Under the pieces are notes generated by a model. That model was not told where the DNA came from. It was given only the letters and a program-made list of their open reading frames with translations, and did no database searches. From contig NZ_CP009455.1 of assembly GCF_000759535.1 (NCBI RefSeq), forward strand, positions 4,278,001-4,342,000: a stretch of DNA of 64,000 bases, read 5' to 3'. This document shows, in pieces, positions 36,612 through 40,778 of this stretch. Position 1 is the first letter of the stretch; each line of letters starts with the position of its first letter. The translations under genes were made by a program, and so were the position numbers. The stretch is from Pseudomonas cremoricolorata (GTDB lineage: Bacteria > Pseudomonadota > Gammaproteobacteria > Pseudomonadales > Pseudomonadaceae).

Positions 36612-37223
36612 TCAGGGGTGCGCGACCCCCATCCTGATCAGCTTCAATGCGACCCAACCCGACTCGCCCTGCTGCTCATTGAGATAAGCGAAGCCGTCCT
36701 CGTAATGGCGGTTGATCCTTAGCCCGTGCAGGCTATAGAGCTGTAGTTGGGCATAGAGGCTGTTGGCTACCAATTGATCGACTGGGAGCGAGTCGAAGCG
36801 CCAGAGCATGGTGGCGTTTTGCGCAGCGGGATGTCCGACCGGTTCTGCGGCCTTGTAGAGCCCCAGATAGCCGTTGCGACTGATGTCCAGCCGCCGGTTG
36901 GCGTAGGACCAGTGCGGATGGTCGTCATCGACCCCGGCAGCGCGGATTTCGAAGTCGTATTCGCCATCGGTTTCATAACAACCGAACCAGAACTGTGTGG
37001 CGAACTTGCGGCGCGAGATCACGTAGCCGGCGGCCTTGTGGTCGGTGTAATCATCAGGCCCGGCATGCAGCCAGCCTTCGCTGCTCCAGGGTGCGTCACC
37101 ATTGAGAGTGCCGCCGATGCGGTGCAAGCGCGAGAAGTCCCATTGTTCACTGGGCATGGGGACTTCCTGCCAGTAGAGCTTGGCGGTAAAACTTTTGGCG
37201 GGATTGAACTGATAGCTGGCCAT
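36612..37223 (-). CDS. Hypothetical protein, 203 aa
   Basis: I recognise no family. The soluble protein is rich in aromatic residues (QWDFSRLHRIGG, FWFGCYETDGEYDFEIRA, HPHWSYANRRLD), which recalls a beta-rich fold. It has no signal peptide. The ATG at 37223 has GGAG eight bases upstream. It lies between queD (convergent) and the DUF1289 gene (same strand, 60 bp upstream). Confidence 0.7.
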   Translation of the reverse strand: MASYQFNPAKSFTAKLYWQEVPMPSEQWDFSRLHRIGGTLNGDAPWSSEGWLHAGPDDYTDHKAAGYVISRRKFATQFWFGCYETDGEYDFEIRAAGVDDDHPHWSYANRRLDISRNGYLGLYKAAEPVGHPAAQNATMLWRFDSLPVDQLVANSLYAQLQLYSLHGLRINRHYEDGFAYLNEQQGESGWVALKLIRMGVAHP

Positions 37224-37283: not shown

Positions 37284-37769
37284 TCAGCCGGAAACAGGCT
37301 CCGTATCCAGCCCCTGCTGGAGAAAACCCGGCGCGATATAGCGCTCGTAGTGCGCTTCGGAAAGCAGGAAGAACTCCCGGTCGATGGCGTCGCGCAATGG
37401 CGGCAGCTCCCAGTCGCGAAACTCCGGCAACAGCGCCACGCCGTAGGCATCGAGGTCACGGATCATGCGCGCGCCGCGGGCAATCAACTGGTACGCCCAG
37501 CAATACTCCGACTGACGGGCCAGAAAGCGGATCGAACGCTGTTCCAGTTGCTGACGCAGACGCTGGGCGTCGAACACTTCCAGCTTGGCCATCATCACCT
37601 GCGCCAGCAGTTGCTCGAGACGCAGCCAGACGGCGCGCTTGGCCTCTTCGTCGTAGCTGTTCCAGTGAATCACTTCATGGTGGAAGCGCTTGCAACCGCG
37701 GCACACGAGGTCGCCGTAGACCGTGGAGCAGAGGCCGACACAGGGGGTCTTGATAGTGTTGCTGGACAT
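37284..37769 (-). CDS. DUF1289 domain protein
   Basis: 161 aa with the DUF1289 cysteine pattern at its N terminus, CVGLCSTVYGDLVCRGCKRF, likely a metal or Fe-S site. A longer C-terminal helical part is typical for Pseudomonas versions. Function is unknown. It is divergent from acnB, sharing a 408-bp intergenic region. Confidence 0.8.
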   Translation of the reverse strand: MSSNTIKTPCVGLCSTVYGDLVCRGCKRFHHEVIHWNSYDEEAKRAVWLRLEQLLAQVMMAKLEVFDAQRLRQQLEQRSIRFLARQSEYCWAYQLIARGARMIRDLDAYGVALLPEFRDWELPPLRDAIDREFFLLSEAHYERYIAPGFLQQGLDTEPVSG

Positions 37770-37856
37770 GGCAGAGGTACAGCTTCTGAAACAGACACCG
37801 GGCCATGTTAGCCCTTTGTCTAACCAGGGTCACTCGCTAAAGTCGATTCGCTCGCC

Positions 37857-37885
37857 TTACCATCGGCCGGTTTTTCCCGTAGAAT
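37857..37885 (+). promoter_or_regulatory. Putative acnB promoter
   Basis: TTACCA at 37857-37862 and TAGAAT at 37880-37885 with a 17-base spacer resemble a sigma70 promoter. It would start RNA near 37892 and place the structured element below in a leader of roughly 285 bases. Confidence 0.45.
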
Positions 37886-37918
37886 CACTCCGCCTTTTCA
37901 AGGCAACCATGTCCGTTG

Positions 37919-38056
37919 GAAGCTGTTTTCAAAGCGTCACGAGCACAGTCAATCCGGTAGAACGGCGTTGGCCGGTGGCATGCCCTCCCCCGCATGTGCC
38001 GACCAACCCCTCATCAGCCTTCCGTTCTACAGGCGTAAAACTTTGAAAACAGCTTC
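37919..38056 (+). other. Long structured inverted-repeat element in acnB leader
   Basis: GAAGCTGTTTTCAAAG (37919-37934) and CTTTGAAAACAGCTTC (38041-38056) are perfect 16-base complements. Inside them GTAGAACGG (37957-37965) pairs with CCGTTCTAC (38022-38030), and GTTGGCCGG with CCGACCAAC (one mismatch), followed by a GC-rich loop. The whole folds as one long, three-helix hairpin of 138 nt. It is either a structured RNA (leader or small RNA) or a MITE-like element with 16-bp terminal repeats; no clear target duplication is seen. Confidence 0.7.
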
Positions 38057-38084
38057 TGCAAGGATTTCCAGCGACCCTGGCTGG

Positions 38085-38101
38085 GCGGCTCAAAAAGCCG
38101 C
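38085..38101 (+). promoter_or_regulatory. Second hairpin in acnB leader
   Basis: GCGGCT-CAAAA-AGCCGC forms a compact stem between the long element and acnB; a further weak stem GTCCC/GGGAC lies at 38136-38157 just before the ribosome-binding site. These add to the structured nature of the leader. Confidence 0.45.
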
Positions 38102-38177
38102 TGCGGCGCTTGGGTGCCGGAAGTGCTGGATGAGCGTCCCGGACTCCCTTTAGGGACCACTGATGAGGGTAATAACT

Positions 38178-40778
38178 GTGCTTGAAGCCTACCGCAAACA
38201 CATCGAAGAGCGTGCCGCACTGGGCATCGTGCCCCAGCCGTTGAACGCCGAGCAAACCGCAGGCCTGGTCGAGCTGCTGAAGAATCCGCCGGCCGGCGAA
38301 GAAGCCTTTCTCGTTGAACTGATCACCGACCGCGTCCCGCCTGGGGTCGACGAAGCTGCCTATGTCAAGGCCGGCTTCCTCTCCGCCGTCGCCAAAGGTG
38401 AAACCCATTCCCCCCTGATCGACAGCAAGCACGCCACCGAGCTGCTGGGCACTATGCAGGGCGGCTACAACATCGCCACGCTGGTCGAGCTGCTGGATGA
38501 CGCCACCCTCGGCGCCGTCGCGGCCGAACAGCTCAAGTCCACCCTGCTGATGTTCGACGCCTTCCACGACGTCGCCGAAAAAGCCAAGGCCGGCAATGCC
38601 AACGCCAAGGCCGTGCTCGAATCCTGGGCCGCGGGCGAGTGGTTCACCAAGCGTGCGGCCATCGCCGACAAGTACACCCTGACCGTATTCAAGGTGCCTG
38701 GCGAAACCAACACCGACGACCTCTCCCCGGCGCCCGACGCCTGGTCGCGCCCGGACATCCCGCTGCACGCCCTGGCGATGCTGAAAATGACCCGCGATGG
38801 CATCGAGCCCGAGCAGCCCGGTTCGGTCGGTCCGCTCAAGCAGATCGAAGCCATGCGCGCCAAAGGCTTCCCGGTCGCCTACGTCGGTGACGTGGTCGGT
38901 ACCGGTTCCTCGCGTAAATCGGCGACCAACTCGGTGCTGTGGTTCTTCGGCGACGACATCCCCAACGTGCCGAACAAGCGTGCTGGCGGTTTCTGCTTTG
39001 GCACCAAGATCGCCCCGATCTTCTACAACACCATGGAAGACGCAGGCGCCCTGCCGATCGAATTCGACTGCACGGACCTGGCCATGGGCGATGTCATCGA
39101 CGTCTACCCGTACAAAGGTGAAGTGCGCCGTCACGAAAGCGACGAGCTGGTCACCACCTTCGAGCTGAAAACCGAAGTGCTGCTCGACGAAGTGCGTGCT
39201 GGCGGGCGTATTCCGCTGATCGTCGGCCGCGGCCTGACCGAGAAGGCCCGTGCCGAACTGGGCCTGGGAAGCTCCGACCTGTTCAGGAAGCCGGAGCAAC
39301 CGGCCGACAGCGGCAAGGGCTACACCCTGGCACAGAAGATGGTCGGCAAGGCGTGTGGCGTCGAGGGCGTGCGCCCTGGCACCTACTGCGAACCGAAGAT
39401 GACCACCGTCGGCTCCCAGGACACCACCGGCCCGATGACCCGCGACGAGCTCAAAGACCTCGCCTGCCTGGGCTTCTCCGCCGACCTGGTGATGCAGTCG
39501 TTCTGCCACACCGCGGCCTATCCGAAGCCGATCGACGTCACCACCCACCACACCCTGCCCGACTTCATCCGCACCCGTGGCGGCGTGTCGCTGCGTCCGG
39601 GTGACGGCATCATCCACAGCTGGCTGAACCGTATGCTGATGCCCGACACCGTCGGCACCGGCGGCGACTCGCACACCCGCTTCCCGATCGGCATCTCGTT
39701 CCCGGCAGGCTCCGGCCTGGTCGCCTTCGCTGCTGCCACCGGTGTCATGCCGCTGGACATGCCCGAGTCGATCCTGGTGCGCTTCAAAGGCAAGCTGCAG
39801 CCTGGCATCACCCTGCGTGACCTGGTCCATGCCATTCCTTACTACGCCATTCAGAACGGCCTGCTGACCGTCGAGAAGAAAGGCAAGAAGAACGCCTTCT
39901 CCGGCCGCATCCTGGAAATCGAAGGCCTCGACGAGCTGACCGTCGAGCAAGCCTTCGAGCTATCCGACGCCTCGGCCGAGCGCTCGGCTGCCGGTTGCAC
40001 CATCAAGCTGCCAGAGAAAGCCATCGCCGAGTACCTGCAATCGAACATCACCCTGCTGCGCTGGATGATCGGTGAAGGCTACGGTGACCCACGCACCCTC
40101 GAGCGCCGTGCGCAAGCCATGGAAGCCTGGCTGGCCAACCCTGAGCTGCTGTCGGCCGACGCCGATGCCGAATACGCCGAAATCATCGAAATCGACCTGG
40201 CCGACGTCAAGGAGCCTGTGCTCTGCGCGCCGAACGACCCGGACGACGCCCGCCTGCTGTCCAGCGTCCAGGGCGAGAAGATCGACGAAGTGTTCATCGG
40301 CTCGTGCATGACCAACATCGGTCACTTCCGCGCTGCCGGCAAGCTGCTGGACAAGGTCAAGGGCGGTATTCCAACCCGTCTGTGGCTGGCCCCGCCGACC
40401 AAGATGGACGCTCACCAGCTGACCGAAGAAGGCTACTACGGCATCTTCGGCAAAGCCGGCGCACGCATGGAAATGCCAGGCTGCTCGCTGTGCATGGGTA
40501 ACCAGGCTCGCGTGCAGACCGGTTCGACCGTGGTTTCCACCTCGACCCGCAACTTCCCCAACCGTCTGGGCGATGCCACCAACGTCTACCTCGCTTCGGC
40601 GGAGCTGGCGGCAGTGGCCTCGATTATCGGCAAGCTACCGACGGTCGAAGAGTACATGCAGTACGCGCAGAGCATCGACAGCATGGCTGCCGACGTCTAC
40701 CGCTACCTGAGCTTCGACCAGATCGCCGAATTCCGCGACGCCGCCAAGGCCGCGCAGATTCCGGTAGTCCAGGCGTAA
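38178..40778 (+). CDS. acnB: Bifunctional aconitate hydratase 2/2-methylisocitrate dehydratase
   Basis: 866-aa TCA-cycle enzyme interconverting citrate and isocitrate. B-type order is seen: the N-terminal HEAT-like domain ([15 protein letters not shown]), then the swivel domain before the Fe-S domains. Cluster cysteines are in [10 protein letters not shown] and [13 protein letters not shown]; substrate residues occur in [15 protein letters not shown] and [14 protein letters not shown] choose GTG at 38178 because it matches the conserved N terminus and GAGGG lies eight bases before; ATG 38163 is an alternative. Cut off by a strong terminator. Confidence 0.95.

Follow-up and report, generated by a model that had tools for sequence, protein, structure and literature searches.

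A family-wide predicted structured leader RNA of acnB in Pseudomonas cremoricolorata and its relatives

In translational riboswitches and ribosomal-protein leaders, a structured leader holds an anti-SD sequence. The acnB leader element described here differs from these in its bipartite complementarity, to the SD region and to the start codon, and in a nearly invariant 16-bp stem. The icd, sucA-II (RF01758) and sucC (RF01759) motifs reported by Weinberg et al. in 2010 are found in leaders of TCA-cycle genes in Pseudomonas (main text of PMC2864571), and resemble the acnB element in being candidate structured RNAs named for TCA-cycle genes of pseudomonads or gamma-proteobacteria; they are, however, other motifs at other genes, and the acnB element has no Rfam match. 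The strings "acnB" and "aconit" do not occur in the main text of PMC2864571, nor do words for acnB or aconitase occur in PMC3460626, PMC8297930 or PMC11109978, and no acnB leader RNA was found by title or opening of the abstract in the open-access articles searched, ncRNA surveys included.

Control of acnB itself has been described at two other levels. In P. aeruginosa at low iron, deletion of prrF de-represses acnB (cited passages of PMC2851614); PrrF is under Fur control (cited passages of PMC6321483), and PrrF complementarity over the SD region and start codon has been proposed for brnD (cited passages of PMC13104616). The PrrF sRNAs (RF00444) have CCUCAUCAG in common with the element, a sequence complementary to the acnB SD region, but they are trans-acting and Fur-controlled (PMC6321483, same passages), whereas the element lies in cis, has another fold and complements the start codon as well. 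E. coli acnB is subject to an sRNA at its RBS and to a second, mRNA-bound control: apo-AcnB attaches to the 3'UTR and stops RyhB-induced cleavage (cited passages of PMC4150767). There, however, the AcnB site lies in the 3'UTR, whereas Pseudomonas has a large 5' leader structure.

The window (the whole stretch of 64,000 nucleotides of P. cremoricolorata DNA that was analysed) holds in the acnB leader a 138-nt palindromic element at 37919-38056. Its 16-nt arms, separated by 106 nt, are perfect complements, as a sequence-only reading of this DNA had stated, and its placement after a promoter-like site and before acnB, assigned here by Pfam, also agrees with that reading. The features of the locus, in window positions, are as follows.

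37857..37885, + strand: promoter-like site TTACCA-17-TAGAAT (one found against 0.1 expected in shuffles)
37919..37934, + strand: 5' arm of P1, GAAGCTGTTTTCAAAG; 15 of the 16 P1 pairs invariant in 71 distinct sequences
37934..37949, + strand: conserved internal-loop strand GCGUCACGAGCACAGU
37940..37949, + strand: L1, CGAGCACAGU, complementary to the start-codon region 38175-38184
37957..37965 with 38022..38030, + strand: P2, a covarying 9-bp helix
37967..38007, + strand: P3, a covarying hairpin with a variable apical loop
38008..38017, + strand: L3 (anti-SD), CCCUCAUCAG, complementary to the SD region 38160-38169 and sharing CCUCAUCAG with PrrF
38041..38056, + strand: 3' arm of P1, CTTTGAAAACAGCTTC; one position A or G, paired either way (U-A/U-G)
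38071..38125, + strand: P4 hairpin region, covarying, missing in short-leader lineages (limits approximate, from alignment columns)
38136..38157, + strand: P5 hairpin GUCCC...GGGAC, directly 5' of the SD, with conserved pairing
38160..38169, + strand: SD region CTGATGAGGG, which both L3 and the PrrF core complement
38175..38184, + strand: start region ACTGTGCTTG, the complement of L1, comprising GTG (38178-38180) and the second codon
38178..40778, + strand: acnB, aconitate hydratase B (PF11791, PF06434, PF00330)

The element RNA folds with a computed energy of -55.4 kcal/mol, a value that none of 200 shuffles reached; these average -34.2 (sd 3.4), which puts the element at z -6.2. Two inner helices had been proposed from sequence alone; the 9-bp one is present as P2, while the supposed near-perfect 9-bp one is in fact a stem broken up into 5+5+5 bp. 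The outermost helix of P3, GTTGG/CCAAC, pairs 37967-37971 with 38003-38007. P4 is absent from some lineages because only about 50 nt follow the element there, leaving no room for it, and in P5 a C-G to G-C swap retains the pair in two of 34 aligned sequences. The TAGAAT hexamer of the promoter-like site is identical throughout the 34-sequence alignment. No terminator-like site (GC stem plus T run) was found on the + strand between 37770 and 38200, which rules out an intrinsic terminator, as had been claimed, and leaves the earlier suggestion of a free-standing small RNA unsupported, since no such site lies downstream. At gathering scores, an Rfam 15 scan of the whole window gave only SrbA and one tRNA, both elsewhere, and a scan of 37700-38300 at E values up to 5 matched no family; the element likewise gave no match to the PrrF covariance model (RF00444), both PrrF matches of the genome lying elsewhere. 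The SrbA sRNA match (RF02872; 3051-3272, + strand) scored 69.8 bits, barely over the gathering score of 69. Also in the window, a 203-aa ORF without a Pfam match (36612-37223, - strand) lies between genes of the 6-pyruvoyl tetrahydropterin synthase family and of DUF1289.

We infer from the spacing, the SD GAGGG at 38165-38169 and the conservation of the protein's N-terminal start that acnB begins at GTG 38178, 121 nt after the 3' end of the element, rather than at the upstream ATG 38163 of the ORF list, which overlaps the SD region. Across 144 of 147 loci, of which 127 are distinct, the start is GTG in 127/127, codon 2 is CTT in 125/127, codon 3 GAA in 127/127 and codon 4 GCC in 123/127, whereas most of the later codons show synonymous variation. 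The fixation of CTT is compatible with pairing to L1. Among the order's other families, acnB begins with GTG at 24 of the 26 loci used (of 28; L310 among them is probably misread), some with a GATGAGGG SD, and codon 2 is TTA (8), CTT (7), CTA (7) or CTC (4). Three genomes of g24 and g26, which have no element, retain TGATGAGGG and CTT. The constancy of the start region is thus no proof of pairing, and constant GTG, being common to other families too, was rejected as evidence for it.

The 291-nt region has a single match in its own genome and is present in 36/36 same-genus genomes and in 0/21 genomes of other families. A covariance search of relatives, which the sequence-only reading had proposed as a check, placed the element before acnB family-wide: a model built from 29 sequences matched 354 of 398 family genomes, in 17 of 19 genera. 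Most genomes give two model matches, the second of which, where listed, is nearly always the same palindrome in antisense. A third match in G118 (L094) is another repeat, and G082 and G253 likewise show a third match; the model matches at L094 and L080 were rejected as palindromes other than the element. In an order-level sample, 14 of 293 genomes matched; 13 are family members, and the sole remaining match was rejected as weak (E 5.6e-4) and located at a different palindrome. Among the matches listed (at least 120 stretches), the 80 named records are Pseudomonas or Stutzerimonas, and in 77 of these 80 loci an acnB start lies within 700 nt downstream, the other three having the element at the locus edge. 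The element is present in three strains of P. putida. Loci L037-L076 and L079-L093 (L080 excepted) were left out of the analyses. Seven of the 44 genomes without a match were inspected: one had an enlarged element, three had acnB without the element, one had acnB cut by a contig end and two had only weak AcnB paralogs. The element-free acnB loci read in g24 and g26 come from three genomes. In L123 (G143), the element has grown to 258 nt via added interior sequence, with P1, L1 and the acnB start region retained.

Covariation was examined in an alignment of 72 matches from 73 sources (A4; 71 distinct sequences, none from g28 or g39), from which L118 was dropped as falling below a cut set to exclude antisense matches. 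Paired cells amounted to 94.6%, compared with 86.0% when the 3' letters were shuffled and at most 47.0% when they were slid; double changes occupied 217 cells against 61.8 in shuffles (0/500 as high) and 17 pairs against 13.3 (4/500), figures biased toward the structure, because A4 was itself fitted to it and its rows are related, shared ancestry not being taken into account by the shuffle controls. Two-sided changes occurred in 10/10 P3 pairs and 6/8 P2 pairs. P1 is too constant for covariation to be judged, 15 of its 16 pairs being constant and the remaining one U-A or U-G, and the internal loop GCGUCACGAGCACAGU/GCGUAAAAC is also near-constant across the 15 coded genera of A4; g28 and g39 deviate in the internal loop or at the inner end of P1. 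The element, conserved before acnB across the family, covarying and unmatched in Rfam, is thus real and apparently an unreported structured leader RNA, in support of the earlier proposal of a new structured leader with a TCA-cycle connection.

At two places, over 10 bp each, the element complements the acnB translation start, once at the SD region and once at the start codon, a feature that the sequence-only reading had not noted. RNAalifold was applied to the whole leader in an alignment of 34 of 36 loci (A1; L027 and L036 dropped as inserted or divergent), while a second alignment (A2) held 29 of the 36, five near-duplicates also being dropped. Unprompted, the program paired CGAGCACAGU (37940-37949) with ACUGUGCUUG (38175-38184) at 10/10 positions in 34/34 sequences, and the ACCCUCAUCA segment with the SD sequence UGAUGAGGGU in 31-34 of 34 sequences per position. 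When the interior of the window's element was shuffled, two non-overlapping helices to the start region, each 10 bp or longer, arose in 21 of 20,000 shuffles, and one such helix in 1,355. Of 127 distinct elements, 112 contain the L1 motif GAGCACAG and 15 lack it (counted without a shuffle control), and Watson-Crick complements to the element's own SD window reach at least 7, 8, 9 and 10 nt in 104, 97, 80 and 61 of the 127 (likewise counted without shuffles). By duplex energy, L1 beats all of 60 shuffles in 93/127 elements and in 16/31 distant ones, while the SD complement does so in only 48/127 and 4/31. Complements to the SD and start codon thus occur in many but not all lineages, several being without one or both.

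The accessibility of the anti-SD was evaluated in 28 of 29 planned representatives (L012, a duplicate, was removed). It was better than in shuffles (p<=0.1) in 15 of 28, with a combined p of 1e-6 (2e-4 for the 21 from other genera) that assumes independence, which the representatives do not have. In the other 13, including L102, L108, L110, L113, L115, L120 and L121, it was no better than in shuffles; in three of these an accessible 9-nt window was not found, and one of the three nonetheless holds CCCTCATCAG. In two sequences of g27, the anti-SD CCUCAUCAA has an unpaired probability of 0.98-0.99; as read off the sequence, it belongs to a hairpin loop. In g34, where the element has shrunk (two genomes give model matches of 85 and 89 nt), SD and anti-SD have changed together in 3/3 genomes: the SD region has AAAGAGGG in place of UGAUGAGGG, and the anti-SD in the element is CCCUCUUU (CCUCUUUU in one genome). 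For L1 and its target, a compensatory change was never seen. The same-genus locus L115 (G424), without a PrrF match, has lost both complements and has an altered SD region (CTAAGAGGG).

The genome carries two PrrF genes whose core UCUCCUCAUCAGGCUAAUCACGG, which we take to be the PrrF pairing seed, includes CCUCAUCAG, the core of L3, and PrrF and L3 are predicted to pair with the same SD bases. PrrF alone is insufficient as the cause of the constant SD region, since in g34 the SD tracks the element and not PrrF, which retains CUCAUCAG despite the changed SD region. PrrF may well contribute, since the SD region of g24 and g26 fits PrrF though the element is absent. PrrF duplex energies computed on 65-nt windows were set aside because extra pairs were mixed in (g34 values of -17.7 to -27.8).

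On these grounds, the element is probably a cis-acting structured 5' leader that controls initiation of acnB translation. A nearly invariant P1 with a conserved internal loop carries the covarying P2-P3 arm, and in most lineages L3 complements the SD and L1 the start codon. Docking of L1 and L3 on the start region would block ribosome binding, and release of the start region by L1 and L3 would allow acnB to be translated. The docked form may be a pseudoknot keeping P1-P3, as both segments fall in internal loops once P1-P3 have formed, or an alternative fold without P1 and P2. For the leader in the window, the two mutually exclusive folds have computed energies of -116.3 and -117.1, and over 111 of 127 leaders the median difference is 0.6 kcal/mol, with 96 within 5. 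The mean difference is 0.4 observed against 3.5 with shuffled interiors, and the mean absolute difference 2.95 against 3.76; near-equal fold energy as proof of a switch is weakened by controls that lie only mildly farther from zero, and the energy balance is therefore weak evidence by itself. A clean open state is not predicted, since the SD has a mean unpaired value of 0.32 even with P1 enforced.

L3 would hide the possible pairing site of PrrF, and because the site is common to both, leader folding and PrrF should compete. Less firmly, the invariant core of P1 and internal loop may be a receptor for a signal, candidates being a TCA metabolite or AcnB acting as an RNA-binding apo-protein; a sensed ligand or protein behind the acnB leader is plausible. 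The fuller proposal, that a family-wide switch senses a metabolite or aconitase through the stem-and-loop receptor and drives a clamp on SD and start codon, with iron competing through the built-in PrrF core, is a tentative possibility. Aconitase B stands at the citrate/iron crossing of metabolism, and a leader RNA shared by 17 of 19 sampled genera would add a new point of control over this enzyme; its target overlaps the site that the iron-sparing sRNA PrrF could use, and it gives an exact, easily testable prediction of element-SD and element-start pairing.

What the core does can be read in two finer ways, and a third reading does without a sensed signal. The core might bind a small molecule that belongs to the aconitase reaction or reflects the iron/redox state, and shift the SD/start pairing as a strict metabolite riboswitch, for which the complements could act as expression platform; the near-invariance of P1 and internal loop in 71 sequences from 15 coded genera, next to variable P2 and P3, is aptamer-like. 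A nearly invariant perfect stem of 16 bp is nevertheless unusual for an aptamer, the stem or loop deviates in g28 and g39, acnB is the only downstream gene in the loci read and an Rfam match is absent, and we hold this reading to be possible but doubtful. In the second reading, apo-AcnB or another protein would bind stem and loop and repress or protect its own mRNA; the attachment to acnB alone in the loci read fits such autogenous control, and the invariant stem sequence suggests sequence-specific recognition. The protection of E. coli acnB mRNA from sRNA-induced cleavage by apo-AcnB at the 3'UTR (cited passages of PMC4150767) makes an AcnB-sensing leader a reasonable rival; that site is not a leader site, however, and a protein-sensing leader appears rather unlikely to us. 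The element could also work constitutively, with no sensed signal, as an mRNA stabilizer, an RNase III substrate or a shield against PrrF, the SD complement tuning basal translation or covering the PrrF site. The PrrF core holds the L3 core CCUCAUCAG and both fit the same SD, and P. aeruginosa acnB is de-repressed without prrF at low iron (PMC2851614, passages cited above), but a plain stabilizer would need neither an invariant loop nor the g34 anti-SD that tracks the SD rather than PrrF, and such a device likewise seems an unlikely account.

Two further readings concern DNA rather than RNA. The sequence-only reading had allowed that the leader might be supplied by a MITE, which dispersed copies of the ends and absence from relatives would betray. 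A present-day MITE is ruled out: allowing up to two mismatches, the P1 arm occurs at 10 genome places, the exact ones being the element's own two arms only, and relatives carry the element at the same place (354/398, not patchy). An ancient MITE, inserted 5' of acnB in the family ancestor and since domesticated, would account for the palindrome, for the 14/16 likeness of the arm to a stretch at 8 other genome places (7 inside dispersed-repeat copies) and for the one repeat copy in a relative that weakly matches the model (35 bits, L094). Its ends are without exact dispersed copies, however, the outer ends of the dispersed repeat differ in sequence in this genome, and BLAST of the element against 11 repeat places of its own genome gave a best E of 0.052, which makes such an origin very improbable. 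Even less credible are two transcription-factor operators formed by the inverted 16-mers: the near-invariance of both arm sequences speaks for them, but P2 and P3 covary as RNA, the sole P1 variant retains an RNA wobble (U-A/U-G) and the promoter-like site is followed, not preceded, by the element. The preferred reading remains that of a structured leader RNA in cis.

In g26, the element-free acnB leaders of L125 and L126 have ACAGGCGTTTGCCCGCAACC...CCCCACCAGAT in common and another pre-SD hairpin, GTTCCGTCACAAACGGAAC; a different leader structure may have taken the element's place there. Matches to the dispersed palindromic repeat ACAAGGCGAAAACAGCCGAGGAAGCGGAGTTTAC...GTAAATGAGCATTCCGAGGCTGTTTTCAACGCAG number 11 in the P. 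cremoricolorata genome (L279-L289, outside the window) and 3-39 in seven of eight other genomes searched, with none in G082; its outer stems are approximately TAGGCTCTGTCTGAAA here, and seem to differ from copy to copy in relatives.
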